From the NCBI GenBank assembly GCA_905147135.1, contig LR990043.1:11195057-11259056 (forward strand): a DNA stretch of 64,000 nt, in the 5' to 3' direction. Both the position numbers and the translations under genes were made by a program. This document shows, piece after piece, positions 37,271 to 61,668 of this stretch. Positions within the stretch are counted from its first letter, which is position 1, and each line of letters begins with the position of its first letter. The DNA comes from Blastobasis lacticolella. Its lineage: Eukaryota > Arthropoda > Insecta > Lepidoptera > Blastobasidae. The notes below the pieces were generated by a model that saw only the letters and a program-made list of their open reading frames with translations, was not told where the DNA came from and made no database searches.

Positions 37271-37742
37271 GTCCCATTTTTATAAATCCTGCCGTACAGG
37301 TACAGAGCCCTCTATCATAAATTGTGCTCCTTTTAAATGTGCTCCCAAACCATTCAATATACCCAGTCATGGTACCTATATTGATTTGATTATTTCAGTA
37401 AATATCCAAGAGAATTTTATACATTGAATTTAATTTCATAATAGCAGAATTATGTAATAAGTTGAAGATTAAGATGTAATAACCTACCTATTGATTGTTG
37501 GGATAGGCCCTGTCAGAGCCGAATAGTATAATTATGTTTCTAAGAGGCTATGCCAATGGATTTGGGTTGGATTCCCATCGTTCCCATGTTGGAACGGTTT
37601 GAGGAGACTGATTCGAAAATTTTATTGTACGGGTTGTTATTTGTGTTTTTATTCAATTCTTTATTTGGAATATGTGTGGTGTATGTATGCAGATACTATA
37701 ATGTAATAATGATTTACATAGTTAGTCATGATTACATTTAAA
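37271..37742 (+). repeat. 470-bp dispersed repeat, left copy
   Basis: From GTCCCATTTTTATAAATCC to GATTACATTTAA, nearly identical to 55764-56233 in the same orientation. The repeat starts exactly where the TTAA element ends. It does not begin TG and end CA, so it is not a simple LTR. An open frame at the end encodes a hydrophobic peptide (LLFVFLFNSLFGICVVYVC), but the other copy has a base deletion there. Confidence 0.75.
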
Positions 37743-38442
37743 CAGGGATAATTTCGATGTTGAAAGTTAAAATTTCAAACCAATTATATTTGTAAATTTA
37801 AAGAAATTTTTTTTAACTGCAAAATTGTGTGTTTGAAAATTGTACAAAATTGTGTGTTTCATTCAGCACGTTCAAAACCCTACAAAGTGATTCTTTTTGG
37901 AACCTTTTTTCCTCAAGATATTTGCCGCTTAGTAATATTTTTATCTTCCTATTATTTAACATTCGGGGTTTTCAATGCTGGGATCAGGCTCAGGTCAAAT
38001 CTTATCTCTTTTGCCTCCAGTCGGTTGCTCACTAATAAGATCTTGTAAATGGAACTATTTATAAGTTAGTGAAGTCTTTTTCCTGCTGTAGTTTTTTAAA
38101 ATTGATATCATTCTTGAACTTAGGGCTCACGGAAATTATGACTATTGATTTGTGACCTTTAACTATAGTATTTTAACTCAAAATTTTAATTTTTTTAATA
38201 GTTATCTTCTGGTTGTGTATTAGATAAATTTTTGATATTTAGTGATGAAATATTGAGCGTATTTGCATTTTTTACGTACAAAGAATCCTTGAAAAATTTA
38301 ATTACTCATATGTGTGTTAGCTCTAAGTGATTTGGAGGAACTATCACGTTTGACAGTTAAATAAAAAATAATAAAATAACCTAAACAGAAAAAAATATTT
38401 ATTGTAAACTTAAAATAAAGAAAACATGAATTTTATTATTAA
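37743..38442. other. AT-rich stretch left of the PTP cluster
   Basis: No intact gene. On the - strand between about 38140 and 37810 there are short adjoining reading frames with a coding-like look (for example SNRLEAKEIRFDLSLIPAL, then GKYLEEKRFQKESL in another frame) that might be a decayed gene. I cannot assign a family. Confidence 0.35.
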
Positions 38443-40030
38443 CTAAATTTGTTTAATTTGAAGATTCATTAAGTATGTGTCTTTGCCCGTAAAATGTAAA
38501 CGTAGTTCTAAGAACATTTCATTGTAAGATCGAATAGTACTTAAAAAGTTAAGAAAAACATAATTTAGAAAAATATATTGGATTTAAGATAAAAAACTGA
38601 GATTTCTCTGCATCCTTATACTTATTACGACTGATGGTATTGATATGGTTGCTGTTTTTACTAGTTGATACAAGCAGCAATCTGCAGCACAAAAAGTTGC
38701 AGTTCTTCCCACACCTGCCATTCCATGGACAACAATTGGGCCTATCGATGATTGCCCGGTAGTCAATACTTCGAAGAAAAATTCTTGGTGCTGTTTATTG
38801 ACCACTAACAAGAAGTCAAGAAACGATTTTACATTAGGAGCTCCGTTTTCGGACCAATCTAAAAACTTGAAACGATAAGCGGATACTACACACACGATAT
38901 ATATCGTGATACGTATCGTGATCCATATCGAGTAATATTTTGGATCGCAAGTCGACCCTACACACACGATAAGAATCGTCGATATTTTCATTAGTCTGTG
39001 CATTCTTTCATTCATTTTGATGGCTGAATAGACTAAGTTGCCAATGCCTAGCCTAAAAAAAAGCATTTTTGACGCGTCGCTGGTGTATATTTACGATTTT
39101 TACGTATTTTTACCAAAATGACTGATAAAGCTTGCGTTGCTATAGTATAAGCATTAGGATTAAAAAGACGCGTGAAGAGAAAAAAATGAGTAAAATTATG
39201 AGGATGAGGATCTTGTTGACTTTTTATACTTTTATAGTAACTGTCCAGGTCCATAGTGGCCACAGCAGCTTGAAAATAAACACAAACAATGAAAATAAAT
39301 TTGAAATTACGTTATTTATCTGTCAGTTTCACAGAAATGTCGTGATAAATATCGACTAGATACTAGACGCTCGATATATATCGCACGATAGTTGATACGG
39401 ATCGTAGATTTCTGGATTTTCGGAAATCCTGTGATCCGTATCACGATTCGTGATATTCTAGGCTACACACTCGATAAATATCGTGATCCTGCGTGAATCA
39501 CGATATAAATCGTGTGTGTAGTATTCGCTATAAATCGTTCTTTTCTCTCCAGTCCGAATGTGAGTGAGACTTGAAATTGTCTTGGTGAAGTAATAATTCA
39601 AATAGATATTCTCTTCCTTGAATATGAAATCTCTCAAGACATAGGTCGGCTGTGATGGTTCTCCGGGGCTGGTCAGTTGAACGATAATGCGAGAGTTTTG
39701 CTGCCAAACCATGGACCAGAAACTGTTCAAGGTGGATTTCATCGGCAGCTCAGTTGCTATAAATTTGTTATCTAGATTGAATCCATTTAAAAAGTTAGCG
39801 TTGATGTAATCTGATCCACCGTTATGGTTTGCTAAGACCACACGAGTAATGTCCCAACACGGAAAGAATGAAAACCGATTTTTATCATTGTTTTCAGGCT
39901 TATAAAAGTTTTCACAGGTGCCACTTATCGGTATTGCAATAATTTTAGAATGCTCTTGAGAGATGTTTTCTGGATGGTGAGCTCGTTGTACGAATTCAGC
40001 AGCTCCAATTGTTGATAGATTCAAATCCAT
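38443..40030 (-). pseudogene. Bracovirus-type protein tyrosine phosphatase A, broken by a transposon
   Basis: Intronless PTP of the kind carried on bracovirus circles, where such proteins are thought to alter host haemocyte signalling. Start ATG at 40028-40030 (MDLNLSTIGAAEF). It has the pTyr-loop KNRF, a DYINANFLNGF block and a WSMVWQQNSRIIVQLT block. Then a 652-bp element is inserted at 38878-39529, followed by FKFLDWSENGAPN and the P-loop region. The P-loop reads HGMAGVGRTA: the catalytic cysteine is glycine (codon 38722-38724). A TAA at 38584-38586 cuts the end, and the same frame stays open to 38443. The frame on the two sides of the insertion agrees if the element and one 3-bp duplicate are discounted. 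A dead or pseudo-phosphatase even before disruption. Confidence 0.85.
38878..39529. mobile_element. 652-bp MITE inside PTP A, ATA target duplication
   Basis: Termini AGCGGATACTACACACACGA at the left and, inverted, AGCGAATACTACACACACGA at the right, each continuing into ATATATCGTGAT-type palindromes. Flanked by ATA at 38875-38877 and 39530-39532. Interior full of ATATCG/CGATAT inverted repeats, without a transposase. A partial inverted copy, matching 39277-39529, fills 63755-64000 and also sits next to TAT. Superfamily not assigned. Confidence 0.8.
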
Positions 40031-40127
40031 AGCAAAAAATGAACTCTTCACTTGGTGAGACGTAGAAGTAGTGTGACTACAACGATTGGTTTTGTAAGAC
40101 TAAAAATAAATCATCGTCCACTATTGG

Positions 40128-40133
40128 TTTATA
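40128..40133 (-). promoter_or_regulatory. TATA-like element of PTP A
   Basis: TATAAA on the - strand about 100 bases before the PTP A start codon. Confidence 0.35.
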
Positions 40134-40426
40134 GGATCCCTTATCAGAAAGCGTTTGACTTGTGAGCTTGTAGTGAAGATATAGTTGGATTTCTAAGAAT
40201 TAAACATACAACAGCGTTATCATTCAACAGTTAGTTGTATTTTACGTTTTACTTTATCATGATTAATATTATTATTAACTTTTACTCATTTATGGTTTTC
40301 TAATCACGTTAAACCATAAAAAAGTGCGTCATTTGTTGAAAATATATTTTTAATTGGGTCAATGCGTCACGTAGTCCATCATTCGTCATTTGTGATTATA
40401 TTCATGTATAATGAGGAAAAAAATCA

Positions 40427-40435
40427 TATATAAAT
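40427..40435 (+). promoter_or_regulatory. TATA-like element of PTP B
   Basis: TATATAAAT about 85 bases before the PTP B start codon, with an initiator-like CACAGTG near 40466. Confidence 0.4.
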
Positions 40436-40517
40436 TACCGTTAATGACAATCAACTATTTAGTTCGCACAGTGATTTAGTCAAATTCACACATATCAATC
40501 CAGCGCTCACCACAAAA

Positions 40518-41414
40518 ATGAGTTGTGACAAGTCAAAAGCTTTGACCCGTAAAGATTTCTTCAGAATAGTCGGTGGTGATAACTCTATTGAATATCTTTA
40601 TTAAGAATACCAAAAAATAATAAATATTAAAACAGAAGGAACGTTTCAAGCCTGTATAACTGCTGCTGATTTCGAAGATGAAAAATATTGAGAAAGGCTG
40701 TGTTTCGACCACAACCGCGTGGTCCTTTCACAAAAAAAGGAGTCACCAACTTCATAAACACCTCTTACATCAACGGGTTTCAACAACCAAAGGCGTACGT
40801 TGCTACTGTAACGCCATATTCAGAAACAACGATCTGTAAGTTTTGGAGAATGGTTTGGGAACATCAATCTGAAATTATTGTAATGCTTAATGCACCTGTT
40901 CATAATGAGGATGGCATCTATTACTGGAATCCAAAAGAAGGAGGTATGTTTCATTGCGAACAGTTCAGGATTGAGACTCTCAAAGATCAGATGATTTTCC
41001 CGGAAATCCACTTTACAAAATTGTGTGTTACACACAAAAATGGAGATGAATTGTTTGTCAGCCATTTTTTATTTAACAATTGGCAGGAAGTATATCTCAC
41101 TCCCAGAATATGAGTTTCTTCGGTTAGTGAAGATGGTACGATTATACAATAAATTTGCAGTGAAGCAAGATTCTCGTATCAAAAGTCCCATGGTGATTCA
41201 TTGTAGTGATGGGACGGGACGAACAATGGCCTTCTGCGCCATAGACACAGAAATTTCAAGATTTCTAGAAACAAGAAGAGTTGATTTGTATTCTACTCTA
41301 TCGGAGCTGAAGAAAAACAGATTTGACAGTTTTAAAAGCTTGGATGATGTGAATTCCTTAAGTTTTATTCACTTTGTTTTGTGGTGTTATTTTAGAACTT
41401 ATCCCTTAGAATAA
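40518..41414 (+). pseudogene. Bracovirus-type protein tyrosine phosphatase B, multiply broken
   Basis: Intronless PTP relic. It starts ATG at 40518, with stops TAA at 40602-40604 and TGA at 40689-40691 in the first frame. The CFDHNRVVL block follows in the first frame. A frame change occurs at the A-rich run near 40731-40738, after which INTSYINGF and WRMVWEHQSEIIVML are read. A second change occurs near 41085-41095, ahead of the P-loop. The P-loop is HCSDGTGRTM: cysteine and arginine are kept, but the usual alanine and the final glycine are not. The gene ends TAA at 41412-41414, with AATAAA at 41555-41560. It faces away from PTP A, sharing a 490-base spacer. Confidence 0.85.
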
Positions 41415-42012
41415 AACAAGTGTTCTCTATTTTGTGACAAATCTCAAGTAATTTTTTACATGTATATTATTATTAATATTTTTTTAGAATAAATTCAGTC
41501 ATAAGATAAGTTAGTATAAGATTTATGTAATTTCTAGTGTGATTGTATTTTATAAATAAACTAAAGATACCAAAGTTATGTAAGGAATTTGTAAAAAAAA
41601 TTTTTAACACCTAATGAAATTACGGATTTAATATGTAACCCTGTTTTTATTTTTTCAACGACCTAAAACGAGAGACATGCGCATCGTTTTATTTTGAGAA
41701 AATTGCAGTGACAATTCCTATCAAAAGTACCCATTCTGAATGATAGTTACGGATTGGTTTCCCTCAGTGTTCGTTGATAAGAACTTTAAGTACTGGTTAA
41801 CCAAAGGACATCCGTTTATGCCCACGCAAAATTTATACAGATAAATTTATAAGGGTAACAGATTATAATCATTTAAAACTTATACATTCTAATTACAATA
41901 CATATTACTAAGTACAATATTGGATCAGTTTTTATTACAGAGGCACATTTAAGAATTTAATTACTTTCTAAACTTTATGAAATAATTAATACAAACATGT
42001 AAAAGATATCAG
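41415..42012. other. Spacer between PTP B and PTP C
   Basis: AT-rich, without an open frame of note. The two flanking genes converge here. AATAAA at 41555-41560 would serve PTP B, and TTTATT at 41931-41936 (AATAAA on the - strand) would serve PTP C. Confidence 0.5.
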
Positions 42013-42968
42013 TTAAGGCTCACAAAATAATAGTCTCATTTCAGGAAGATTATCAAATATCTGTAAAAACTCATATAATACAGTGTAAATAAATACATAT
42101 TGTTCTACAGCTATAACACCTAAATGCCGCTGTTCACGTATTTTCATTACTATTTGAGGTACTGAAACTTTTCTAGTTCTTGCTAGCTGATAGATACAAG
42201 AGTCTATTGCGCAAAAAGTTCCTGTTCTTCCGACTCCAGCACTACAGTGAACAATAATAGGTCAAGGTGTTAGTCTATTCACTTCGTTGATTAAAGTGCT
42301 CCGATATTGGTTATTCACATCGCAAATAAGGTTTGTAAACGATTTGCTGTTGGGAGGTGCTCCATAGTTTGGCCAACCTAAGTACTGATAATGTAGTATC
42401 ACTCTGCTTTCTTCGGTGGTGGAATTAGAAACTTCAAATACAGACTTAATGTATCCTGAATCGTCTTTGGTCTCCATCATTGTTCTGATTGAAAATTCAT
42501 TGGTTTCGAAAATATTTTGCTTGTCACCAAAAGCAGTCCAGTATTGAGCACATTTTTAGTTCCCATTTACTTGGAGTTCCGTTAGCATGACAATAATCTG
42601 GGAATTCTGCTCCCAGACCATCTGCCAAAATTGATTGATTGTTTTTTTCAGAGGTCCCTGAGTCGCCACAATTTTTTTCGGTCTTCCATAATGATCAACG
42701 TAATTAGCATGTATGTAGTCGGAATTACCTTCTTTCGGCGTAATCTTCACCCGAGATCTGTCCCAGCAGGCGACGTCGAAGTAACGGTTTTTTTTTCATT
42801 TTCTGGCTTTGAAAAGCGCTCAAACGATCCAATTTGTGGCTGTGACATGATGTAATTATGCTCTGACTTGACAGCTTCTAAGTAATTGGGTTGATTTCTT
42901 CTGCTTCTAAATTCGTGCTCACTCACTGCAGCTACTTTTCGATCACTCACTTCGAGTTTTGAATGCAT
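42013..42968 (-). pseudogene. Bracovirus-type protein tyrosine phosphatase C, three lesions
   Basis: Intronless PTP relic starting ATG at 42966-42968 (MHSKLEVSDRK). The frame is lost at the nine-base A run (T run on the + strand, about 42788-42796). It is then read in a second frame through a DYIHANYVDHYG block and a WQMVWEQNSQIIVML block. In that second frame, TAA at 42556-42558 and TGA at 42262-42264 interrupt. The last stretch keeps the textbook P-loop HCSAGVGRTG, just downstream of the second stop. HYQYLGWPNYGAPPN stands where the WPD loop belongs, with N in place of D. The natural stop is at 42013-42015. The lesions are few, so inactivation looks relatively recent or slow. Confidence 0.85.
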
Positions 42969-43044
42969 TTTTAATTTTTCAACAATGCGACTGTATGTAA
43001 TAAAGTCCCGAGGATGACTATAGACAAGTATCTATCAGCTGGCG

Positions 43045-43053
43045 CTTATATTC
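43045..43053 (-). promoter_or_regulatory. TATA-like element of PTP C
   Basis: GAATATAAG on the - strand, about 80 bases before the PTP C start codon. Confidence 0.3.
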
Positions 43054-43835
43054 AATTAAAGTCAAGGGATGACACTCCCGTATTACGAATCACTGCTGAT
43101 AAGCCCATTCAATGAAATAATTAAATGATAACCTATCTTATATGTCCAGAAACTTATGTCCGGATCATCAATAACAAAACCATAAAACTTTTTTGTTTAA
43201 AAAATCATTATTCGCAGTAAGCACAGATTTCTTAGAAATACATTCAAGTAAAGATTGTGTAATCTTACATTCTGATAGCAATTTTAATATTGCTCTTAAT
43301 TACAATACTGGCTCATAGTTCATAAGAAAAGCAGCTCATTTATATCTCACAATTACTTTAAACTCAAACATACATTGTAAACTTTATAATCAGTAAAATA
43401 AGCTATAAAATATTGAAAAGACAAAACTTACATGAGAACCTGTTAGGAATAACAAAGTGTTTTGAAGTAACTGATTTTATGTCGCCAATAAATATCAGTA
43501 TATGTAGCAAATTTTATTGTATTTTTATGTAATTACGTCAGCAATACTTTAAATATTGTACAGTTAAATTTGACTCATGACATTGTTACACATTGCCGTA
43601 CATTTTCCTGATATACTTTTAATAATGTGACTTAAAAAAATAGACTAACATTGACGCAAACGACTGAGAGATTATTTAAATAAAATACTTATAGAATAAA
43701 TTAGTTGTAACAGAACCTATTGCTAATTTGAAATAAAATTACCTTTATTTTAAATTCACCCATTTAATAAAACACTTAAAAACTATGGCTTATAAAATCA
43801 AAGCTTGCACAATTCACAAGCAAAAATAAAAGTAG
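43054..43835. other. Spacer between PTP C and the ankyrin gene
   Basis: AT-rich sequence with no open frame or repeat that I recognise. Confidence 0.5.
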
Positions 43836-44367
43836 TTAATCTGTTGAATTTGATAGAAAACCTAGAATTTTACTTAAGTTAAACGGGCTTACTGAACATC
43901 CAGAACTATTATTTTCTTCAATCTTTATTATAAGCATATTCATTATTTCTTCATCATTGTTTTGCTCAGCAATTTGATAAGCCGTCAATCCATCTTCATT
44001 ATTAATGTCTTTATCGGCGTGCATCTCTACTAATCCTTCTACCAGCTCGTGGGCGCGTTTTCACTGCTTTATGTAAAACAGTGTCTCCTGCATTATCCTG
44101 GGCATTCAAGTCTGCTCCCATAGCTACCATCAACGATATCATATCGTCAGCATCACTTTCACTTCGGCACCTTACGACAGTATGGAGACACGTGTTTCCG
44201 TCGTCATCCTTGAGTTTTAGTATGTGCTGAAAGTCTTTATCTCCAGAATGGTTATATATTCTATCCCAAATATCGTGACAGTCAGATTTAGCAATCAAAT
44301 GGAATATCGTATAGTTTCTGCTTGTAGGATCTGGACCGAATGTGTCGTTTAATTTATCAGAATCCAT
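43836..44367 (-). pseudogene. Bracovirus-type ankyrin (vankyrin, I-kappa-B-like) gene, frameshifted
   Basis: Short intronless gene for ankyrin repeats, of the kind bracoviruses and ichnoviruses carry as I-kappa-B mimics that hold NF-kappa-B factors. Start ATG at 44365-44367 (MDSDKLNDTFG). Repeat-like blocks are NYTIFHLIAKSDCHDIWDRI, DDDGNTCLHTVVRC and NAQDNAGDTVLHKAV, then a frame change near 44051-44060. In the new frame, MHADKDINNEDGLTAYQIA continues the last repeat to the stop at 43836. The full span of about 177 codons is the usual size for bracovirus vankyrins. The regulatory N- and C-terminal parts of true I-kappa-B proteins are absent, as in the viral family. One lesion is visible. The shortened product of the first frame would lack the last repeat. 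Confidence 0.85.
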
Positions 44368-44437
44368 TTTTAGAGAGAGTAAGATGTCTCTTCTTGAAGT
44401 CCCGAATCGCAATAATACTGCTTCCTACTGGAAGACT

Positions 44438-44446
44438 CTTATATAG
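44438..44446 (-). promoter_or_regulatory. TATA box of the ankyrin gene
   Basis: CTATATAAG on the - strand, about 75 bases before the ankyrin start codon. Confidence 0.45.
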
Positions 44447-45195
44447 TCGGCTGATATAGAGGGATTCATAAACAAAAATAGTTTCTATCGCGGGTTTTCC
44501 CATAGGTTAAATGTTATCGCCGTCCGAATTACCGCGTGCTCCATATGGGACGTTACCAATCTACATTACTTCATATTGTTTATAACGAATTTATGTCATA
44601 CGTTGTAACAAAAAACATAATTCTCTGCTTGGCTGATAGTCTTTGTTCACCTGTCTTATCTTTTGCAGAGCTTTCGATACAATTACACCCTTTCTCTTTT
44701 TAAATTTTTCTTTCAAAAATCAGAAAAAAAATCAAAGGTACTGTTCGTACAATCAAAAATAAAGTTATGATACAATTCATAGAGAAATCCTATTTATATT
44801 GGTCCTTTGACTGCCTAAAGTTAACTACATTATGGTGATTCACTTCCTGTAGAGGTAGTATTACTTGAAAATTAGTAATGTTAAATAATATAAGAAATAG
44901 TTAATTTCATATACTGAAACATGATGCTCCATATCATCGCTTTAGTTTCCTAAACTCCAAATAAAGGGTTTTAATTGTAATTTGTAAGGTTTTTAAAGGA
45001 AAAGAAGTTCATGATAACATTTGAACTCACTGACAGGCTTGTTAATTAACCACATGGGAATTTTTATAGATAAAATTAATTTTTAATGATGTTTAAATAA
45101 ATATCAAACTCAATAGACTGAAACCTTGTGCGTCATATTGGTTAAATTGTTCATTCAGGGAGGAAAAAGTTAATATTAATGCTGAAATTCATTAG
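44447..45195. other. Divergent spacer between the ankyrin gene and PTP D
   Basis: AT-rich, no open frame of note. It holds the upstream regions of both genes, which point away from each other. Confidence 0.5.
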
Positions 45196-45215
45196 TATAA
45201 ATGTGTCACGATCAG

Positions 45216-45247
45216 TATAATATTTTCATTCGATACTGATCTTCAGT
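45216..45247 (+). promoter_or_regulatory. Core promoter of PTP D (TATA plus initiator)
   Basis: TATAATA at 45216-45222 and the arthropod initiator TCAGT at 45243-45247, with the initiator A 29 bases downstream of the TATA start. This is ideal spacing. A second TATAAAT lies at 45196-45202. The predicted leader is about 44 bases. Confidence 0.5.
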
Positions 45248-45288
45248 CGAAACAAGGACTCTCATCCTGTGAAAATATTTTTTTTTAA

Positions 45289-46218
45289 ATGGGTGGGATT
45301 TCTACGAAAAAAGAATCTGGCGTTAGTTACAATGAAGAAAGAATAATCAAGATCCTCGAACAAGAACAACGGAGAATATTAGACGAAAAAGTTGAGTACA
45401 GTCGCAGCATATCGATGAAGGAAGAAAATATTTTGAAAAATAGATACTGGTTTTTATCTTGTTTTGATCATAACAGAGTGATCTTACCAGCAGAAAACGG
45501 AGAAAGCGACTATATCAACGCCAATCACGTCAACGGGTACAAAACTCGAGGCAAGTATTTGTGCTGTCAGGGCCCACTTCAGTCAACAGCCGAAGATTTT
45601 TGGAAAATTGTGTTTGGATATCAATCCAGAGTCATCGTTATGTTGACAAAAACACACGAAGAAAAACAGGAAGTCTGTTACCAGTACTGGGGCCCGAAGA
45701 AAGGAAGGACAGTGTGGTTCGGTGACTTCATTATTGAAACAAAGAAAGTAAAGACCTTTTGTGACCATATAGTGACCAAGCTACGGATGACAGACGACAG
45801 TGGAGACTCAGTAGACCTCACACACTTCACTTACACCGATTGGCCTCATAAAAGCGTGCCTCAAAGCCGATCAAACTTTCTTAACTTTGTTCTCAAAGTC
45901 AGAAAGGCTCAAGCACATGTGGAGTTTGATAACAAGAGTTCCAACTTTCCTCCTATGGTGGTCCACTGCTCTGCTGGATTAAATCGCACAGGAGCTTTCT
46001 GCGCTCTAGACATCAGCATATCGAGATACAATGAGAGTTCGACGATCGATCTAGCAACAGTAGTAAGAGATCTCCGCAAGCAAAGAAACAACTGCTTATC
46101 TTTGTCCACTTATTATGTATTTTGTTATCTTACAGTTTTAGAATATGTTAAATTAGCTTCTAAAAAAGCGAAGTATTCATATTGTAATTTATTTTTAAGA
46201 CTAGTTTTTCAGTATTGA
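45289..46218 (+). CDS. Bracovirus-type protein tyrosine phosphatase D, intact
   Basis: Uninterrupted 309-codon, intronless PTP gene. It would act in the cytoplasm or at membranes on phosphotyrosine proteins. The N-terminus MGGISTKK fits an N-myristoylation site (Gly2, Thr6). Motifs in order: pTyr loop KNRYWFLSCFDHNRV (about 50-64), DYINANHVNGY (about 74), QGPLQSTAEDFWKIV (about 95), a WPD loop that reads TDWPHKS (His for the catalytic Asp), and a P-loop HCSAGLNRTGA with cysteine and arginine present and Asn for the usual Gly. The Q-loop glutamine is not obvious (LSLSTYYVF). Family length is about 300 residues. The single catalytic domain and lack of introns match bracovirus PTPs rather than the host's own multi-exon PTPs. 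Activity may be reduced, or substrate trapping, because of the missing Asp. The start is supported by the promoter spacing. Confidence 0.88.
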   Translation: MGGISTKKESGVSYNEERIIKILEQEQRRILDEKVEYSRSISMKEENILKNRYWFLSCFDHNRVILPAENGESDYINANHVNGYKTRGKYLCCQGPLQSTAEDFWKIVFGYQSRVIVMLTKTHEEKQEVCYQYWGPKKGRTVWFGDFIIETKKVKTFCDHIVTKLRMTDDSGDSVDLTHFTYTDWPHKSVPQSRSNFLNFVLKVRKAQAHVEFDNKSSNFPPMVVHCSAGLNRTGAFCALDISISRYNESSTIDLATVVRDLRKQRNNCLSLSTYYVFCYLTVLEYVKLASKKAKYSYCNLFLRLVFQY

Positions 46219-46253
46219 GATTGTTATTAATATTATAAGTGTTTTACCTTAAA

Positions 46254-46259
46254 TTAAAG
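46254..46259 (+). promoter_or_regulatory. Possible polyadenylation signal of PTP D
   Basis: ATTAAA, a common variant signal, 36 bases after the stop codon. Confidence 0.4.
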
Positions 46260-47025
46260 TTATGTAATTAAAATATTAATAATTTTTTATTACTCCCTCC
46301 TTCTACACACTTTTTAATACCATCCTTGCAACTCAAAATATTAAAATGAATTGATAGCAATTGACGTAGGATGACGATAATAAACCTAAAAGCTGATAAG
46401 TATTTAGCTAATGGAGAGTTTATAGTTCATTATAGTTTATCTTGGGCTACTGGGACCAAATTACTCACTCACAATTGGTCGTTGTGGCTCGGGACGTGGT
46501 TTGAAAACGGTATTGTATGAATAATTAATTTTATTTTTCCTGTAGTGACCATAGCTCTAGGTAAAATAGGTCCATATTATATCATACTGTAATAGCTATT
46601 CTTTAAACGTTGGCAACATTATTGTGATATTCTGGGAAAAACCCAGTTCACAGGTCAATGTTGACCGATAGTAAAATAGGCACACTGTCGATCCAAATTT
46701 GTAGGTACCAACGATATTTGAAGTGAACAAGTGCCGTTATCTTTATTACTTATTGTAAATGAAATTAACCATCATGACCTCATTACTGGGTATTCCAGAA
46801 TTGTTTATTTAATCAAGAACACATTCGTCAATCAACAATTGGTTTTGGGCTTATCGAAATTTTTATTTGAAATTCCCAGTATTCGTTATTGTATAGTTAT
46901 AATTATTTTATCTTATAGTTAGATATAAAGTTACAATATCGATACACGAAGAAATTATTTATATCTGAAATGTTACGGTCGATAAGGATAATTTTGTGCC
47001 CATATATTGCATTTCCCAAAAAATT
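46260..47025. other. AT-rich stretch right of the PTP cluster
   Basis: No gene, repeat or transposon recognised. The right boundary of the inserted viral-type DNA probably falls here or at the start of the composite repeat at 47026. Confidence 0.45.
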
Positions 47026-48498
47026 ACGAATTAGGCACTCAACAGTTTCATAGGAGAGGTTCTGGAGCCAGTTTGTGACACTTGCTTTGGCCAGTTTGAG
47101 ACACATGATAATATATTATTGATGATGACGAAAATACTGATCATGATTTATTAGAAACCGGTCGCAATGTGTAGAGTATATTTTGATGATAGTAGAACTT
47201 GTGAAAAATAATTATGTTTTAATTGATCATGCTAAGGCTGTACTAGATACTTACTTTGTGTGACTTAATTTCATAATAGGTTATAAATATTACCCAATCT
47301 TATAAATGAAATGCTATAAAAGAATGTCTTAATTTTACATGCTTAGGGGAACTAGATTGATGGACGTGCTAACTCGACAGGACGAAATTGATGATACAAA
47401 GTGAGAACAAGGTGACTGTCGAGGAAGGTTATATCAATCAATATGTGTGTTATGGTTTATTTTCTTAAAGTTAACTGATGGCTCACGTACCAGACGGGTA
47501 AGTTTTATTAGCTAAGTGCCTAGTGGTCGTATGGGGGCTTCAGTGGTGTTTCGGCGAGTTGTTTTTGAGAAAATCTTAATTGATAGTATGACATAGTTTT
47601 GTTGAAGATACTGATTTTATATCATATTATCTTTGGTCAAAGCGTGTGGTAAATCACATGCCCTTGATGAGTAGAATGAGTAGGATGAGAGGAGCACGTA
47701 CTTGTTGAAAGTCAGTTTAGACTTAGTTACAGTTGCGGCATAGGCTTTCCTCTTGGTCAGACATTTGATGCAGAGTGTCGTAACTCCTACCTTTATCAAC
47801 TAACTGCTTCCATTGGCTGCGTTCCGTCGCTTGGTACAGTGTAGCGCTGACTGGAGTTTCCAGCTCTTCGGATACCTGCACGACATTGTTGTCGACTCTT
47901 TTAGTGTGTGTCATTGGATAGTTAATGTTATGCTATTATAATGATACAAAGAAATCAATTGTCGCGTGATAAAAATAGGCTGTGAAGTCTTGATCTGTAT
48001 TTTGTTCGTAACTCATAGACCCAGAAGATATAGATACCAACCAATCAAGTCAACACTGAGTATACATATGTAGTTACAGACATTCACTACTCGGTTTAGC
48101 AAGAAATGTCAATAATAATAATTATTACTTATCTTACTCTAGGAGCTTGACATGTCTTTTTGAGTAGGTACTTCTCAGATTTTGGTTTAGGTCACAACAA
48201 ACATGTTCGAATTTACGTGCAAAGCTTTCAATCAATTAACAAGTATCCATTTGGATAAGCGCTTTCTAGTTAGAATCCTCTCTCGAGAGAAAGGGAACCA
48301 GGCTTTGGAGAGGGAGTCCACATTGACAGTATTTTGTATGGTAGGTTAGGATGTGATAGATCATCCTCGTTTTTCAAGATAGTCAGGAAAAAGTGATCGT
48401 AAGTTACTTACTTACGAGTAAGTTTTTGTTGTTAATGTTGATTAGATAGGTACGATACCTACATACCGCACCCTTGAGAGTTGTACCTGCATAGGTAC
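47026..48498 (+). repeat. Composite repeat copy 1, first segment
   Basis: Matches 58953-60442 with few changes, from ACGAATTAGGCACTCAACAG to CTGCATAGGTAC. No gene recognised; small open frames in it are not conserved as proteins. It is interrupted at its right end by a LINE fragment. Confidence 0.85.
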
Positions 48499-51400
48499 AC
48501 CTCAACGAGTAAGCTGAAGTTACGCCTTACTTCCAGAGAGTTGAAGCCAAGAGTACCCAGCAAGAACTTAGTGGGGTACAAAAAGGGATAGTATCCATAA
48601 TTTTTTTTATAGAGAAAACGTAAAAATGTTTTTTGTATTTTCTCCAGAAGTAAGGCGTAAGAACTCTCATATGGGTTCCAAATAATCGATGCTGATTCGA
48701 GTTTGCTCCGCACCAGCGCCGAGTATATGAGTTTTATCACGCTGGGATCTCTAAATTCGCGGGAATTCCTTATTACGAACCCTAGTCTTTTAGAACACTC
48801 AGATGCAAGTTTCTTCATGTGATCATGGAAGTTGAGAGTTGGATCAAAAACGACTCCCAAGTCCTTAACTGCATTAACACGAGTGATTGCATTTGCGCCC
48901 AGGGTGTACTGAGCCAGCAAGGGACTCTTTGATCGACTGAAGGTCATTACATGGCACTTATCTGGATTAAAGAGAAGTCCATTATCCACACTCCACGCAT
49001 CAATGTCTAATTGCAGCGAGTTGCAGTCAGACATCTCAGTCACTCCGCGAATTAGTTTTAGGTCGTCGGCATATAGTAAGCTCCAAGAAGATTGGAGAGC
49101 CAAGTCCAGGTCGTTCACCATAATACCAAACAAGAGCGGACCTAATACTGAGCCCTGACTGACCCCAGACCGCGTGTGGTATGGATCTGAGACATAACAG
49201 CCATGTCGGACGTACTGTTGTCTATCGCGCAGGTAACTTGCAAAAAGTTTCAGTAGAGTAGGTGAAAAACCAATGGCACCCAGCTTACCCAACAGAATGT
49301 CATTGTCAACCCGGTCAAAAGCCTTTTGAAAGTCGAAATAGACCACATCCACCTGAACACCCCTATCGAGATGGTCAGAGACAAGGTCAACCAAGGTTAG
49401 TAGGTTGGTATTAACAGAGCGTTTGGATCTGAACCCGTGTTGGGTGTCACTCAAGAAAGGCTTGACCTGGGAAGAAATGTGTTCGTACAGAATAGACTCG
49501 TACAATTTAGCCAAAGATGATAAATTTGCTACTGGTCTGTAATTTTCTACATTTTTTAAGTCACCTGATTTTGGAATTGGCTTAACCCGTGTTAACTTCC
49601 AGAGCTCTGGATAAGTACCGGAGGAAATCGACAGATTCAAAATATGGCAAATGGGGTCCACAAGAAACTCCTTTTATAATAAAAGAAGGTACATTGTCAG
49701 GGCTCATAGAAGGTCTTAGCCTGTTAATGGCATTTTCAACATCCTGAACGGTGATATGCCCAATAGAAATATAATTGGCTGACGTGGTTCGGTCAGCCGT
49801 ACTCGCATCAGCACAATTCGCACAATTCGGAAGCAAATGCATCTGCGGCTTTGCACCCAGTGTTTTCCTCGCCGTTAAAAATAACCTTAGCCTCAAAACC
49901 TCCTTTCAATTTTAGGCTGCTTATGTGATTCCAAAAAAAAACGCGGATCACGCTTGATGTTAACCTGAATGCGACGTAGGTAGTCTTTATATGCACTCGC
50001 ACTTCTCCTTTTAACATCAGCACGGAGGCTAGCAAATTGTGCATACGAATAGTGACAACCATACGCTTTCCACGCACGATGGAATCTAGCCTTACGCTCA
50101 ATGTCCCTAATTAAATCTGCAGAAAACCATACCGGATAGATTCTGTTTGCTCTGCGATGTCTGATCTTCCTCGGTATGCACTTGTCGAAGATATCATATA
50201 TTATTGAATAAAAATATTCAAGGCAGTCGTTTACACTATGAGCTAAGTAGACATTATCCCAGGAGGTGTTAGTGATAAGGTGATATAAAAGTTCGTAATT
50301 TCCCTTAGAGAAATTCCAGTCATCCTGTGGATCAATGTTACTCGGCCCAAGTACTGTAGATTGTTCCCGTTCGGTATCCCTTAGGGGGACACTAATTTCC
50401 AGAGGAGGGTGATAGACATCACGTCGCTGAACAAGACCACCCCCCAATATCTCCATGACTTTCGTCTGACGCAACTTTTCAGACACCAGCACCACATCTA
50501 ACTTTTCACCGTACAAATTTTCAACAGCATTCATCTCTGTCAGGCCACAAACGGATAAAAAGTAATTATAATTATTCAAAATATCATTTGACTTATATTT
50601 AGGATTTAGATTAAGGTCTCCCATTATAATGACGGGTCCTTTCAACGACTCGACCACTGACTCGACTTTTTGGAACCAATTAAAGTACTCAACGTCAGTC
50701 GCCCGCGGATTGATGTAAACAACGCACAAATTAAAGGTCACATTACCAAACATGCACGAAGCCCAGAGATCTTCACCGGCGATAGTCTCTAGCTCCGGTC
50801 GACGTTGAAGCTAAACACCTGAGCGCGCTGCGAGCATCACCCCACCACCCTGTCCAGTTGACCGATCACGGCGTAGGACGCTCCATGCAGAGCCTGTTAC
50901 CTCAGCATCATCCACCGACGAGTTGAGGAAGGTTTCAGTGATCGCTATGATATCACAATTTCCTAGCAACATGTTGCACCTGAGATCAGCAAGTTTTGAG
51001 TTTAAGCCTCTAACATTCTGATATACTAAAGAGATGCCGTAGTCCTTTCTATTTCGAGCCACATTCCGTCCCCTTGTCGGCGTCAGGTTTTCGGTATCCG
51101 CGAAATAACCACGTCTTTATTCGTGCATTATCAGGCCAAACGTCAGCAGACAAGCATTTCTCGTAATACATGGCTGGAACCGATATCTTGTATGACTTAT
51201 AGTCACCTCTAGCTTTCAGTTCTTCCAACAAGCAACTAGAACCAGGACACAATTGCTTCAAGTACGTTCGAATTTCGTCAACACCCGACAGCATATTCCA
51301 GAGGTGTATACATTTGCGATACTCCACAGCTCTCAGCGTCGTTACGTTAGGTCCAGCAGTACAATGTATAACGTTTGAGCGCCTTGATTTTCTTCTGACG

Positions 51401-51516
51401 TCAGTCCAGCCTTCTTGGGAGCTGCCAGATTCCGCCGAGGAGCGCTCAACTTCTTGTTGGGGTACGCTGGACACCGCAGGCGCATCACCCACCACTGTAG
51501 GTTGCATATGTTCCAA
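48499..51516 (-). pseudogene. LINE ORF1 end plus ORF2 endonuclease/reverse transcriptase, broken
   Basis: ORF1 part 51516-51049 contains CIHLWNMLSGVDEIRTYLKQ and WPDNARIKTWLFRGYRKP, an FP-like C-terminal domain common in insect LINEs. ORF2 follows: endonuclease 51062-50811 (YQNVRGLNSKLADLRCN) and 50753-49893 (VYINPRA, IIMGDLNLNPKYKS), then reverse transcriptase 49896-48499 with NYRPVANLSSLAKLYE, VYFDFQKAFDRVD, SGVSQGSVLGPLLFG and LLYADDLKLI. Frame breaks fall near 50780, 49895 and 49650. The missing end of the reverse transcriptase makes it inactive. Confidence 0.8.
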
Positions 51517-51542
51517 GCTCAGTGATGAGTACTGATGAGTAC
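48499..51542 (-). mobile_element. Non-LTR retrotransposon fragment (CR1/Jockey group), both ends truncated
   Basis: On the - strand it encodes the end of an ORF1 with an FP-like C-terminal domain, an endonuclease and a reverse transcriptase. Its 3' end stops inside the coding region at 48499 and the open frame runs on into the flanking composite repeat. There is no poly(A) or simple 3' tail. In the second composite copy, 316 bases (60443-60758) stand in its place. GATGAGTACT is duplicated at its 5' edge. Confidence 0.8.
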
Positions 51543-52765
51543 TCTATGATGAGTATCGGAGATGGCGAGACGAGTTGGACGCCTTTTCTAAGGATTGGCC
51601 GAGGAAAGCATTCGACTTGAAGGCCTTTGCCCTGCAGTGGGACAGAGATGGCTAGAAATAATAATAAAATGTTTTGGTAATTTATTCCGAGCGTTCATAA
51701 CGCTATTGTACAGATAGTTGTACCTAGGATTGGAGGTCCTTAACGATCATAACAGTGATAAAGAGATCCTCTGTGTAGAAATGGATATTGTGTACGAAGT
51801 TTCATAATACGATGTAGTTAAGTTGGACAGAATAATGGTCCTGTAAGACAATACACAGGCGTTGTATTAGTTGGTATGTTGGTACCCTATCCTGGACACC
51901 TGGCGCTGTCAACCGAACCATACTCTGTGCTTGAGTTGGTATAGGAGTCAGTAATTAGAACCAGATAGTGTATGTGTGTTTATGTTTATTCTGGACACCT
52001 GATGCTGTCATCCGGACCATACTCTGTGCGGGAGTTGGGAGAGGAGTCAGTAGTCAGAAACAGATGGTATATCTGTTTGTGTATCCTGGTCTGTGCCGTT
52101 GATATCCAGATCCTGCCTTGTTGCGGGGTTTGGTTTTAAGGATTCAACGGATAGAACTAGCTGATGTTTATGTGTACCCTGGTTCTTAGCCGCTGATATC
52201 CGGATCCTGCCCTGTTGCGGGGTTTGGTTTGAAGGATTCAACGGATAGAACTAGCTGATGTTAATGTGTGCCCTGGTTCTTAGCCGCTGATATCCGGATC
52301 CTGCCCTGTTGCGGGGTTTGGTTTGAAGGATTCAACGAATAGAACTAGCTGATGTCTATGTGTACCCTGGTTCTTAGCCGCTGATATCCGGATCCTGCCC
52401 TGTTGCGGGGTTTGGTTTGAAGGATTTAATGGCTAGAACTAGTTGTTTATGTGAGCCATACCGGGTATGTGCGGGTTGGTTTAAAAGAACCAAAGATCAG
52501 GCGCAGACGATGACTTTGGTACGTTTAAGGTTGATCTAGAGTTGCTTGTTACATGGTCACGATGTTCACGACGGCGAAGTAGATAAACATGGATGTACAT
52601 TGTACCTACAAATAAATTTGGTTGATAAATTTGGGTGCACATCAACACTATGGGGTTGTTTCATTGGACGCACATGATCGGTCCGTGTGCGTTACTTAGA
52701 CGTTGTTGATGGGTAACTACAAATTAGGTTTAGTTTGCAATTCTATATGTCGGGCTCGAGTCAAT
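51543..52765 (+). repeat. Composite repeat copy 1, second segment
   Basis: Matches 60759-61977. It starts with a remnant of an RTE-type reverse transcriptase end (51543-51655: YDEYRRWRDELDAFSKDWP, ending QWDRDG and a stop) and contains the 94-bp tandem units. Confidence 0.8.
52079..52450 (+). repeat. Four tandem units of about 94 bp
   Basis: Units begin at 52079, 52172, 52266 and 52360, each starting GTGTACCCTGGTTCTTAG (first unit diverged) and containing GATATCCGGATCCTGCCCTG and GGATTCAAC. The last unit is slightly diverged. The same four-unit array is present at 61297-61668. Confidence 0.9.
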
Positions 52766-55763: not shown

Positions 55764-56233
55764 GTCCCATTTTTATAAATCCTGCCGTACAGGTACAGAG
55801 CCTACCATCATAAATTGTGCTCCTTTTGAATGTGCTCCCAAACCATTCAATATACCCAGTCATGGTACCTATATTGATTTGATTATTTCAGTAAATATCC
55901 AAGAGAATTTTATACATTGAATTTAATTTCATAATAGCAGAATGATGTAATAAGTTGAAGATTAAGATGTAATAACCTACCTATTAATTGTTGGGATAGG
56001 CCCTGTCAGAGCCGAATAGTATAATTATGTTCCTAAGAGGCTATGCCAATGGATTTGGGTTGGATTCCCATCGTTCCCATGTTGGAACGGTTTGAAGAGA
56101 CTGATTTGAAATTTTATTGTATGGGTTGTTATTTGTGTTTTTATTCAATTCTTTATTTGGAATATGTGTGGTGTATGTATGCCGATACTATAATGTAATA
56201 CTGATTTACATAGTTAGTCATGATTACATTTAA
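55764..56233 (+). repeat. 470-bp dispersed repeat, right copy
   Basis: Nearly identical to 37271-37742, same orientation. The flanks differ on both sides. Confidence 0.75.
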
Positions 56234-58952
56234 CTTCATGTTTCAAGTTTTCTTGTCATTAAGTAGGGTGTGATGTCGAACAGTACACAGTTAGCCACCA
56301 TTAGTATCACCATAAAACAACGTTGCCAGATCGTGCAGTAAGCGTAATCGTACTTGGTTTTTACCGCTCTTCTTGCTTTCCAGTTGGTAGCGAGCTCCAG
56401 TGCAGAACGCCCGCGACTCAGGGCATTTTGTGATTTTATGCGTAAAAACCCGGAAAATCCTAAGTAGTAATTTTTAGGTTTTCAACCTTATACTGCATCT
56501 TTTAAAAGTAATGTTTTTTTCTATTTCTGTACTGAATATCTTTGCATTGTTTGGTCGTACATTCATGAATCCTACTTTGATGATAAATTTTTTGATGAAT
56601 TTAATATCAGTAGAGGTGTGTGTGTGGTACATAGTGACCCACTACACCGGCACGAACAGTGAGCCACCGCTCCACTGCGTACAACATCAAAATTCTGATT
56701 TTCTTAATTATTTTACCTTTAATATTCATATACATCAGCAACTGGTTATTTATTTAGAATGATTCCATTCAAAAAATGCGAGTAGGCAATATCAGGCTAC
56801 TGCCGTCAGTCTTCTTGAATGGGTACATGTATTGGCTGGACGGCACGTCTTGGTTTGCGTGGTTTTAATTTAATGAACTCTACCTCTATCCCACTCCGAC
56901 ATGTACCCTACCCCTATCCACGCCCTAACCGTGCTCTATCCGTACCCAACCCCCCACAAGTCACTAATATCCACTGCAAAGCTCCACCAGTGGATCGAAT
57001 CCCTACTCTATCACTTACTTTTTTCTAGATAAATTTTTGTAGGGGATATCCCTACCCTACCACACCACCACTGTCGGTAGACGCCTAAAATTTAATAGGA
57101 CCACGATAAGTCCGTATTGACTGACAGTAGTGAACATTATAAAGTGTGTAAATGGCAATAGTCTGGGGATAATCTTTCCTTGTTACTCCTTCTCAGTCCT
57201 TCTTGTAAACATTCAGTTATTTGGTCACTATTAGCTTGAACTTTTGTCTAAATTATTAATCATGCTAAAAATTATTTTCCGCTCTTCCTTTCTAATTGTT
57301 TGCAAAGTATTCAAAAATATTTTTCATAACTCACGAAATTAAACATACCTCCAGAAATTAAATTGTTTGTTATGACTTTTAAGAATGACGTTCTATGACG
57401 GATAAATAACTTGGCATAAATTGCCATACAAAGATTTTAATTTTTTAAATAAGCAATTCTTATTATAGATCTTAAGAACTCTAGTGTAGCTAGGTAGTTG
57501 ACTATTTATTATAATACAACCTTAAAATATATCATCAATGACTGTAATTAGAAAATAGGTTAAGTTATGTTGTTATTGATTTATAGTCTTCACAGTTATT
57601 TTGGTAAATAAAACTAACTGTTTACACATTTATAAAGAATGTATTATTATCTGATTTATCTACTATGCTAATAACTACAACGAGGAAACGTTAATTATAG
57701 CGATTTCATTCGTCGGGCTCACTGTGTACTCCCCGGTTTGCTGTAGACCACCCCCCTGGTTCAATGTGTGCCACGAGGTGGACACAATGAGCCATTTCCC
57801 ATCTTCCAAAAAATCTGCATTATCATTTTATCTATAAAACTTTCTCCATTAACTTATATACAAAATGAGACTCAGATATATTACGCAATGACTAGACCAC
57901 AAAACATTTCATGATATTGACAAACTTATGAGTTATGATTGTTTTACTTTTTTGTGGGTCACTGTTCGACACCTCACCCTAACCTATAGAATAAATAAGC
58001 AATTCTAATTCTTTGCTTGCCATGGAGCTTATTTCTATTCCAAACGAAACTCTCTAGGAGTGTCAATACCATGGCACCCATAGCTATTTGTGCAGAGCTT
58101 AATACAAACAATTGATATTGTAGCAGCAAGTAAATTATTTACAAAAAAAATTATGATGAAGAAGTTTCAAATTGAATTTAATTGCAGGTGCATACCTACC
58201 TATGTTGAATTTAAGTACTGATTTGAACCATTTGGGATGTACTTGCCTACTTAGACTCTTTAATATTATGTTGCTGGTATTATCATAAATCCATAATGAT
58301 GTTGTGACCGCTGTGTCAGTTACATTGTGACCCTGCTGCTGCGCGGATTCTCCCTGCCCAAGTGGTCCATAGTAGTCTTTGTTGGAAGCAGAAAGTTGTT
58401 TTGTATCACCACACCATGCCTTATTGGAGGCATACAAACATTGAATTGGATGTAGGAGCATAATGGTACAGTGTGAAATAATTATTTAATGCTTTTGTGC
58501 ATCTCTATCAACATTTTGTCAAGAGCCTTAAGATATTTAGGATTTTGAGATGGAGCAGGTGGACGATGATGATTTGGATGTTTAGTGATTTTACACTAAA
58601 GGTGAAGTTAAGGCTCACTATTTCAAGTTTTAAATAGATCTACTTAGGTTTAGATAATTATTGTGTAGTGTATTCTTAATGGAATTTCATGCTAATAATA
58701 AAATATTTATTGAGCAAGTACTTAGTCATACACAATTGATCAAGCTGTAGGTAAAGTAGGTGGCAGCCTGTGCTATACCACCAGCTAGCGGAAATAATGT
58801 TCATTTTGCCAAACAGTACTTTTGAAGAGAACATTGGACTTACAAGCTAATAGCATTCTATAGCATTATTTTATACTAATGTATGTGTATTGTGTATTGC
58901 ATTGTGTTATGTATTTGGTAAAACGTAGGATAGCAGGTAACTAATTTGGAGG
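56234..58952. other. Sequence without a recognisable gene
   Basis: AT-rich. A C-rich CCCTACCC-type stretch lies at 56875-57065. A 108-codon open frame on the - strand (58461-58135) begins MLLHPIQCLYASNKAWCGD and has a possible GTACAT donor after codon 73. It matches no family that I know, and coding status is doubtful. Nothing else can be supported. Confidence 0.4.
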
Positions 58953-60617
58953 ACGAATTGGGCACTCAACAGTTTCATAGGAGAGGTTCTGGAGCCAGTT
59001 TGTGACACTTGCTTTGGCCAGTTTGTTACAAATGATAATATATTATTGATGATGACGAAGATACTGATCATGATTTATTAGAAACCGGTCGCAATGTGTA
59101 GAGTATATTTTGATGATAGTGGAACTTGTGAAAAATAATTATGTTTTAATTGATCATGCTAAGGCTGTAGTAGATACTTACTTTGTGTGACTTAATTTCA
59201 TAATAGGTAATAAATATTATCCAATCTTATAAATGAAATGCTATAAAAGAAAGTCAAAATTTTACATGCTTAGGGGAACTAGATTGAAGGACGTGCTAAC
59301 TCGACAGGACAAAATTGATGATACAAAGTGAGAACAAGGTGACTGTCGAGGAAGGTTATATCAATCAATATGTGTGTTATGGTTTATTTTCATAAAGTTA
59401 ACTGTGGCTCACGTACCAGACGGGTAAGTTTTATTAGCTAAGTGCCTAGTGGTCGTATGGGGGCTTCGGTGGTGTTTCGGCGAGTTGTTTTAAGCCTCAT
59501 GAGAAAATCATAATTGATATTATGACATAGTTTGGTTGAAGATACTAATTTTATATCATATTATCTTTGGTCAAAGCGTGTGGTAAATCACATGCCCTTG
59601 ATGAGTAGAATGAGTAGGATGAGAGGAGCACGTACTTGTTGAAAGTCAGTTTAGACTTAGTTACAGTTGCGGCATAGGCTTTCCTCTTGGTCGGTCATTT
59701 GATGCAGAGTGTCGTAACTCAACTAACTGCTTCCATTGGCTGCGTTCCGTCGCTTGGTACAGTGTAGCGCTGACTGGAGTTTCCTACTCTTCGGATACCT
59801 GCACGATATAGTTGTCGACTCTTTTAGTGTGTCTCATTGGATAGTTAATGTTATGCTATTATAATGATATAAAGAAATCAATTGTCGCGTTATAAAAATA
59901 GGCTGGGAAGTCTTGATCTGTATTTTGTTCGTAACTCATAGACCCAGAAGATATAGATACCAACCAATCAAGTCAACACTGAGCAAGCGCGGTTGAGCCT
60001 CAGCAATGCAACATATGTAGTTACAGACATTCACTATTCGGTTTAGCAAGATAAGTCAATAATAATAATTATAACTTATCTTACTCTATGAGCTTGACAT
60101 GTCTTTTTGAGTACTTCTCAGATTTTGGTTTAGGTCACAACAAACATGTTCGAATTTACGTGCAAAGCTTTTCATCAATTAACAACGTATCCATTTGGAT
60201 AAGCGCTTTCTAGTTAGAATCCTCTCTCGAGAGAAAGGGAACTAGGCTTTGGATAGGGAGTCCACATTGACAGTATTTTGTATGGTAGGTTAGGATGTGA
60301 TAGATCATCCTCGTTTTTCAAGATAGTCAGGAAAAAGTGATCGTAAGTTACTTACTTACGAGTAAGTATTTGTTGTTAATGTTGATTAGATAGGTACGTT
60401 ACCTACTTACCGCAGCCTTGAGAGTTGTACCTGCATAGGTACTTTGTTGTGCTATAAATATCTTGGATGACATGATTATAGCAGAAGCGTGATCTAATTA
60501 TCACTCATGTATTTGATACTTGACGGCAATTTTGTCATTGAAAGAGTTCACCAATTACTTTAATTAATTTAGTCTACTGATGTTATGGTTTTTGACGGAT
60601 CATAAGAAGTTCGCACT

Positions 60618-60871
60618 CGAGGCCAGCAAGCCATGAAGCGCAGTATCTTGAGAGTCAAATTGTCGGACCGTATAAGAAACAGTGTATTGCGCTCCAAATA
60701 TCAATTCGCCGATAGAGGTTAAAAAGCTGCCAACCTGAAGTGGGACTGGGCAAAAATATCTATGATGAGTACCGGAGATGGCGGGACGAGTTGGACGCCT
60801 TTTCTAAGGATTAGCCGAGGAAAGCATTCGACTTGAAGGCCTTTGCCCTGCAGTGGGACAGAGATGGCTAG
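60618..60871 (+). pseudogene. RTE-type reverse transcriptase C-terminal remnant
   Basis: The frame from 60618 encodes QQAMKRSILRVKLSDRIRN, a stop, then ANLKWDWA. After a frame change comes YDEYRRWRDELDAFSKD, a stop, and finally ALQWDRDG with its stop at 60869-60871. This block order is the end of RTE-clade reverse transcriptases. Only the second half survives in copy 1 (51543-51655). Confidence 0.6.
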
Positions 60872-61296
60872 AAATAATAATAAAATGTTTTGGTAATTTA
60901 TTCCGAGCGTTCATAACGCTATTGTACAGATAGTTGTACCTAGGATTGGAGGTCCTTAACGATCATAACAGTGATAAAGAGATCCTCTGTGTAGAAATGG
61001 ATATTGTGTACGAAGTTTCATAATACGATGTAGTTAAGTTGGACAGAATAATGGTCCTGTAAGACAATACACAGGCGTTGTATTAGTTGGTATGTTGGTA
61101 CCCTATCCTGGACACCTGGCGCTGTCATCCGAACCATACTCTGTGCTTGAGTTGGTATAGGAGTCGGTAATTAGAACCAGATAGTGTATGTGTGTTTATG
61201 TTTATTCTGGACACCTGATGCTGTCATCCGGACCATACTCTGTGCGGGAGTTGGGAGAGGAGTCAGTAGTCAGAAACAGATGGTAGATATATGTTT

Positions 61297-61668
61297 GTGT
61301 ATCCTGGTCTGTGCCGTTGATATCCAGATCCTGCCCTGTTGCGGGGTTTAATTTGAAGGATTCGACGGATAGAACTAGCTGGTGTTTATGTGTACCTTGG
61401 TTATTAGCCGCTGATATCCGGATCCTGCCCTGTTGCGGGGTTTGGTTTGAAGGATTCAACGGATAGAACTAGCTGATGTTAATGTGTGCCCTGGTTCTTA
61501 GCAGCTGATATCCGGATCCTGCCCTGTTGCGGGGTTTGGTTTGAAGGATTCAACGAATAGAACTAGCTGATGTCTATGTGTACCCTGGTTCTTAGCCGCT
61601 GATATCCGGATCCTGCCCTGTTGCGGGGTTTGGTTTGAAGGATTTAATGGCTAGAACTAGTTGTTTAT
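61297..61668 (+). repeat. Four tandem units of about 94 bp, second array
   Basis: Units begin at 61297, 61390, 61484 and 61578, in step with the array at 52079-52450, including the diverged first and last units. The array therefore predates the duplication of the composite repeat. Confidence 0.9.

Follow-up and report, generated by a model that had tools for sequence, protein, structure and literature searches.

The window analysed here, a stretch of 64,000 nucleotides from the moth Blastobasis lacticolella (G000:C4:11195057-11259056; the assembly comprises 577 Mb in 45 contigs), contains four genes with a protein tyrosine phosphatase (PTP) domain and one ankyrin gene, packed into about 8 kb in mixed orientation. 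A preliminary description, made from the letters of the window alone, had reported this gene content as a bracovirus-type cluster at 38443..46218. The cluster and its arrangement are real. The unit that carries it is wider, however, with a sharp start at 37742 and a truncated finish at 47025 when compared with other copies in the genome, and the genes are not intact: PTP-D is the only one of the four PTP genes that is open, and the other three and the ankyrin gene are broken. The window unit is a decayed bracovirus-derived insertion. Its parts are given below, where kinds A to G are the kinds of unit found in the genome, defined by cargo and end.

37742..37769, plus strand: near end of the unit, an inverted-repeat end starting ACAGGGATAATTTCGATG; host identity halts at 37741
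38584..40051, minus strand: PTP-A, broken and interrupted; PF00102 matches in the open reading frame (ORF) pieces 38584-39066 and 39458-40051; nearest relatives are the kind-C PTPs
38878..39529: 652-bp stretch splitting PTP-A, with 33-bp inverted ends that are 94% identical
40688..41414, plus strand: PTP-B, broken, in two overlapping frames; PF00102; nearest relatives are kind-C PTPs b and c
42070..42798, minus strand: PTP-C, broken, with three in-frame stops inside the domain match (G000:C4:11237126-11237854)
44011..44412, minus strand: ankyrin (vankyrin-type) gene, first open frame, broken; PF13637 and PF12796
45289..46218, plus strand: PTP-D, open, 309 amino acids; PF00102, E 3.3e-68; C-x5-R motif (seen by eye)
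46219..47025: residual far-side DNA of the unit, 97.1% identical to a kind-B copy

Over 37742-38641, 41465-41899 and 43754-47025 the window copy shared 94-98% identity with kind B, and additional PTPs lie between these stretches. The final 270 bp or so, which hold an AGCTTT block and the far end, are gone from the window copy, and the kind-B alignment starts about 270 bp inside the far end. The ankyrin frame has 133 amino acids compared with 192 in the kind-B gene and is cut short; it was 97% identical to the kind-B ankyrin and 80% identical to the Cydia pomonella protein P0241, and DNA similarity to the open kind-B gene extends below 44011. The pieces of PTP-C resemble the second PTP (PTP2) of kind A and Cydia protein P0132. 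The 652-bp stretch within PTP-A is presumably an insertion.

The host DNA around the unit is present twice in the window.

37271..37741: host DNA left of the insert, duplication copy 1; 97.2% identical to 55764-56233
47026..48498: host DNA right of the insert, duplication copy 1; 93.8% identical to 58953-60442
55764..60442: duplication copy 2, insert-free; includes 56234-58952, which copy 1 lacks

Identity between the two host copies breaks precisely at the unit's end. Because the second host copy lies in the same window without the unit, the cluster is an insertion and not contamination. The 2719 bp of copy 2 without a counterpart in copy 1 (56234-58952) are most simply read as the trace of a single later deletion across the right junction, which would have removed the far end of the unit together with 2.7 kb of host DNA; alternatively, copy 2 may have gained these bases through an insertion of its own. 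The host tandem duplication spans 37271-52765 and 55764-61977, parts of which are 94-98% identical. The copy with the bracovirus unit also has a reverse-transcriptase-bearing stretch (48459-49661) that the other copy does not have.

Seven kinds of unit in the genome

Units of this type have exact shared ends, 3-bp target duplications, an AGCTTT block in each kind, a cargo of PTP and ankyrin genes, and a high copy number on 26 contigs. The family occurs on most of the chromosomes. A Pfam search of the genome for PTP domains gave at least 151 matches (150 of the 963 candidates were scored), the moth's own PTPs included, and many of these, scattered over many contigs, were open frames that scored identically. 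Seven kinds of unit were seen. Kind A, exemplified by a 6.87-kb copy on contig C21 (C21:12755942-12762815), carries a PTP gene, an ankyrin gene, a second PTP gene and a second ankyrin gene; the C21 copy was 99.6-99.9% identical to three others and 97.9-98.9% identical to a fourth, on C4. Kind B, mostly 4.86 kb long, has a close relative of PTP-D and an open ankyrin gene. Kind C has four PTPs, and two of its copies were 99.2% identical over at least 9.2 kb; kind D has one PTP and one ankyrin gene. Kinds E, F and G contained PTP frames (one place each, 4 kb read). Kind G may be a branch of kind C, since their end regions are 96% identical. Both ends were read for kinds A and B and one end for kinds C to G.

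Copy number was estimated with end patterns built from kinds A and B, of which the far-end pattern also catches some kind-D ends at 1-2 mismatches. The far-end pattern had 103 matches in the genome (66 forward and 37 reverse) and the near-end pattern, with up to two mismatches, had 93 (38 and 55 by strand); the control gave 0 in both cases. A correctly oriented near end lay within 70 kb of 80 of the 90 typed far ends, and these pairs were distributed over 26 contigs. The paired copies were 3.5-26 kb long, with 19 at 4.83-4.87 kb (ten of them exactly 4863 bp) and 13 at 6.8-6.95 kb. Ten far ends and 13 near ends, the window's near end among them, were unpaired. Twenty-three copies were inspected for target duplications, and all 20 kind-A and kind-B copies that were readable at both ends had an exact 3-bp duplication, for which the chance is about 1 in 64 per copy. 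In three kind-B copies the near end was off its predicted place, and near-end matches were recorded elsewhere for them.

The insert-free paralogue, the spread of units over 26 contigs and the duplications in 20 of 20 copies bear out the earlier proposal of germline residence without wasp contamination. The proposal of one circle that entered and stayed was too modest as to number, given that the window copy is a decayed member of a seven-kind family with 103 far-end matches.

Several copies have unusual settings. The kind-A copy on C21 stops at L010:4815, which lies just within a gag-pol-like open frame (L010:4787-6466), near one of its ends, and this copy seems to have inserted into a retrotransposon. 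At G000:C8:16525530-16564070 and beyond there is a tandem array of units of about 1.4 kb with open kind-A PTP2 frames; it accounts for 18 PTP matches among those listed, its units continue onward, and a far end lies at C8:16582553. An inverted pair at C3:15544322-15552818 was considered as an autonomous partner of the units and rejected, being a palindromic kind-D duplication with PTP and ankyrin genes. The region around it (G000:C3:15544271-15552870, L029) holds a kind-D unit and its flank as the two 4.1-kb arms of a 99.9% palindrome, which is either an inverted duplication or an assembly effect.

Origin of the genes and signature of circles

PTP-D was 81% and 74% identical to two proteins of Cydia pomonella and 49-61% identical to named proteins of bracoviruses and braconid wasps, so the PTP cluster is not a chance resemblance. 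The best match of the ankyrin protein was to Cydia (78%); one weak match was found in addition, and nothing else. A tree was built from 46 PTPs, in which the nine cellular ones, two of them from the moth, were set apart (bootstrap 95, SH-aLRT 93). The first PTP of the element (PTP1) and its Cydia relatives stood beside Glyptapanteles and Cotesia proteins in a group that also holds Microplitis, PTP2 and its Cydia relatives stood beside a second group from Cotesia and the bracovirus CvBV, and the kind-D PTP paired with a CvBV domain (100/100; 61% identity). Some inner forks of the tree were weak, and the one placing kinds F and G had 84/38. Kind-C PTPs b and c, which had formed long branches in an earlier 51-row tree, do not figure here, nor do the kind-E PTP or several unnamed-protein rows; that earlier tree, with one moth row mistranslated, agrees with the later one. 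An origin from the moth's own phosphatases was rejected, as the element PTPs fall outside the cellular insect PTPs. The bracovirus origin first suggested from the gene content is thus upheld: the element PTPs lie among bracovirus PTPs and apart from cellular ones, and the insect's own phosphatases, represented by two moth PTPs on the cellular side, are not their nearest relatives.

One protein from each of the first two PTP groups, both of Cotesia glomerata, is assigned to a contig of 10,597 bases, and for that reason the two probably share a wasp segment. When kinds A and B were compared, the ratio of nonsynonymous to synonymous substitution rates (dN/dS) was 0.23 for PTP1 (dS 0.52) and 0.19 for the ankyrin gene (a rough value, with dS above 2), and between the window and a kind-B copy it was 0.84 for PTP-D. 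These values indicate that selection maintained the genes before or between integrations and that it has been relaxed since. Four related Cydia pomonella proteins (P0001, P0002, P0132 and P0241) are labelled PTP non-receptor type 9-like or type 1-like, or ankyrin repeat protein RF_0381; P0132, a PTP, and P0241, an ankyrin, are both assigned to contigs of 505,925 bases. Proteins P0003, P0134 and P0219 from the stick insects Bacillus rossius and Dryococelus australis were 44-62% identical to the element PTPs and fell on the bracovirus side of the tree.

When the far ends of kinds A to D are aligned, the most conserved 40 columns begin at AGCTTTTT, the AGCTTT block, and 30 of the 40 were identical in all four kinds. 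The block was 140-258 bp from the far end in kinds A to D, and kinds E to G have a similar end 164-207 bp from an AGCTTT block, with PTP cargo (one copy each). The extended block was single in the kind-A and kind-B copies tested. A pattern for the block that leaves out kinds A and B had 45 matches in the genome in several letter variants, known C and D copies among them, with 0 in the control. In published work, an AGCTTT repeat occurs at the segment junctions of the bracovirus GiBV, is perfect in 14 of 16 and is single in circles (PMC1919376), and the 31 nucleotides (nt) following AGCT are conserved in MdBV segments (PMC4169385). A table for CvBV places the excision motif 128-472 nt from the host integration motif (HIM) in 16 of 19 circles and 892-4600 nt from it in three (PMC8460044). 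The unit ends read ACAG followed by G, T or A, with the octamer GAAAGTTA about 20 bases in for most kinds and diverged in kind A; the published motif has a 5 + 8 plan, with the 5-mers ACCAG or ACTAG and then repeats of 8-9 bp (GAAATTTA), and the 39-72 nt between its junctions J1 and J2 are lost upon integration (PMC8460044). The kinds look like integrated circles of a multi-circle bracovirus, because they share a common end with an excision-type block inside. The collections of viral contigs and phage records searched contained no bracovirus relative of the units.

Probable circle integration and possible copying inside the moth

We lean towards an account in which the units originated as bracovirus circles and were then copied inside the moth. 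Circles of several kinds, perhaps all derived from one multi-circle bracovirus, would have become lodged in the germ line of the moth, each after opening at a site like the host integration motif, so that the two halves of the site became the inverted ends and 3 bp of target were duplicated. The comparisons support a further step, in which part of the copy number would come from re-insertion of already integrated copies, one pair of them broken, via the same ends, and the multiplied units would act like a non-autonomous transposon. A host integrase or transposase may have worked in trans, and the genes may have been passengers that are open in recent copies owing to their youth.

The case for copying comes from a ladder that the window forms with sixteen kind-B copies, out of about 42 far ends of B type. 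The ladder is nested: copies C1a, C8 and C27 carry old states like those of the window, followed by C19, then C5 and C10, then C18 and C15a. The youngest eight copies were nearly alike, and five of them had no private change in 1.8 kb; seven of the sixteen form three groups, each identical over 1.8 kb. Two copies, C17 and C21a, have a premature stop in common and differ in contig, flanks and target duplication. Of 92 candidate places, 40 were scored, and two of these matched the stretch with this stop in full. Duplication within the moth of a copy that was already broken would account simply for the shared stop, which favours this step. The changes on the trunk of the ladder (six in 675 coding positions and ten in 1115 noncoding positions) look neutral, and this was dropped as proof of residence in the moth. 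A neutral trunk does not discriminate between evolution in the moth and in the wasp, because wasp PTPs also evolve fast, with a mean dN/dS of 0.80 over 16 PTPs of the bracoviruses GiBV and GfBV (PMC2646287). A coding site that seemed to be shared by C1a and C8 had two different bases and was not used.

Several observations weigh against circle origin followed by copying. No transposase was present among the ORFs of the copies read (cut-offs of 80 to 110 amino acids), with no genome search aimed at transposase families, and no autonomous partner was found for the unit family. Far and near ends were paired solely by distance and orientation, and some of the longest pairs are possibly wrong. Ladder steps past the first rest on single changes, and two of the ten inner branches were well supported. 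The shared stop is one case and not proof, since a wasp population might segregate for a nonsense allele. The bare AGCTTT hexamer occurred once in the kind-A copy tested and five times, on both strands, in the kind-B copy. The unit ends resemble the published junctions J1 and J2 in plan and differ from them in letters; the host integration motif is approximated at the ends without being reproduced exactly. Finally, the ends here are exact, unlike those of somatic bracovirus integrations, which have clustered breakpoints, with microhomology when they are off the canonical place (PMC8549517).

It could instead be that wasps injected circles again and again, that each copy integrated into the germ line on its own and that no unit ever moved within the moth, the ladder then recording the evolution of the wasp virus. 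We regard this as possible but rather unlikely. Seven kinds with a bracovirus-like end and an excision block are what such deliveries could leave, and work by Heisserer in 2023 reportedly described HIM-mediated transfer of polydnavirus DNA to Lepidoptera (cited in PMC11676520). The neutral-looking trunk is also compatible with it, given the fast evolution of wasp PTPs (PMC2646287). The premature stop common to two copies speaks against it, and 80 bounded copies, ten of them at exactly 4863 bp, would need many separate fixations. An ordinary host DNA transposon that captured bracovirus genes, and whose ends are its own terminal repeats unconnected to virus integration, would fit two transposon-like features, the exactness of the inverted ends and the 3-bp duplication in 20 of 20 copies. 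A single capture would not yield seven cargo sets, however, and the seven kinds carry differing bracovirus-type PTP groups together with a common end and an AGCTTT block at about the known motif spacing; this explanation appears improbable. Wasp contamination, misassembly or amplified moth PTP genes can hardly be credited. PTPs are common cellular genes, and the palindromic copy on C3 could be an assembly effect, but the units sit in contigs many megabases long and are flanked by host DNA left and right, a host paralogue is free of the insert, and the two moth PTPs group with cellular PTPs outside the bracovirus side (95/93).

Relation to known systems and significance

The units resemble the HIM-mediated integration of circles of MdBV, CcBV, CvBV and CtBV, in which PTP and ankyrin circles are opened at an inverted-repeat motif (PMC8460044, PMC4169385, PMC3573978). 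They also resemble integrated CvBV circles in that one excision motif (AGCT) is retained inside, 128-472 nt away in 16 of 19 (PMC8460044). Unlike the integrations published, the moth units are in the germ line, have a high copy number and exact ends with a 3-bp target duplication, differ in border letters and show signs of re-copying. Germline residence is shared with bracovirus-derived genes described in other Lepidoptera, but those cases, as far as the accessible text of the reports goes, are few insertions (Ben4 and two Ben9 in the monarch; PMC4574769, PMC5704228). One of these reports raises the possibility, and only the possibility, that some insertions are uncharacterised transposons (PMC5704228). 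In the Cotesia vestalis bracovirus the Helitron Hel_c35 likewise ties a mobile element to a bracovirus segment (PMC5714489, PMC9389653); there a transposon became a segment, whereas the moth segments seem to act as a transposon. The ends of the moth units set them apart from this element type. Helitrons are not known to have inverted ends or a target duplication.

Germline bracovirus insertions in Lepidoptera are therefore known, and multiplication in the manner of a mobile element would be new if confirmed; among the titles and abstract openings listed in an open-licence library, none described bracovirus circles that multiply as transposons. We give about even chances to the fuller proposition that the circles now live on in the moth as a non-autonomous transposon family with a high copy number, in which a host enzyme uses the motif by which wasp virulence genes are lodged in caterpillar cells to copy these genes around the germ line, and a hundred or more wasp-derived phosphatase genes are carried. 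The genes are most likely passengers of a selfish family, and a role in defence or physiology is possible. If copying in the moth is real, a weapon delivered by a parasitoid now serves as a mobile element in the victim's genome, virus integration sites function as transposon ends, and a natural route exists for the spread of wasp genes in Lepidoptera. Even under serial delivery by wasps, the roughly one hundred insertions would make this genome a very dense archive of past parasitism, whose copies can be placed in order one by one. Whichever enzyme made the 3-bp target duplications also becomes directly testable.

Elsewhere in the window, two long open frames (15009-15854 and 26572-27729) are alike by eye, with no Pfam match in either. 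The second is a host gene that matches chitin deacetylase structures at 600 bits, which we take to be silkworm entries.

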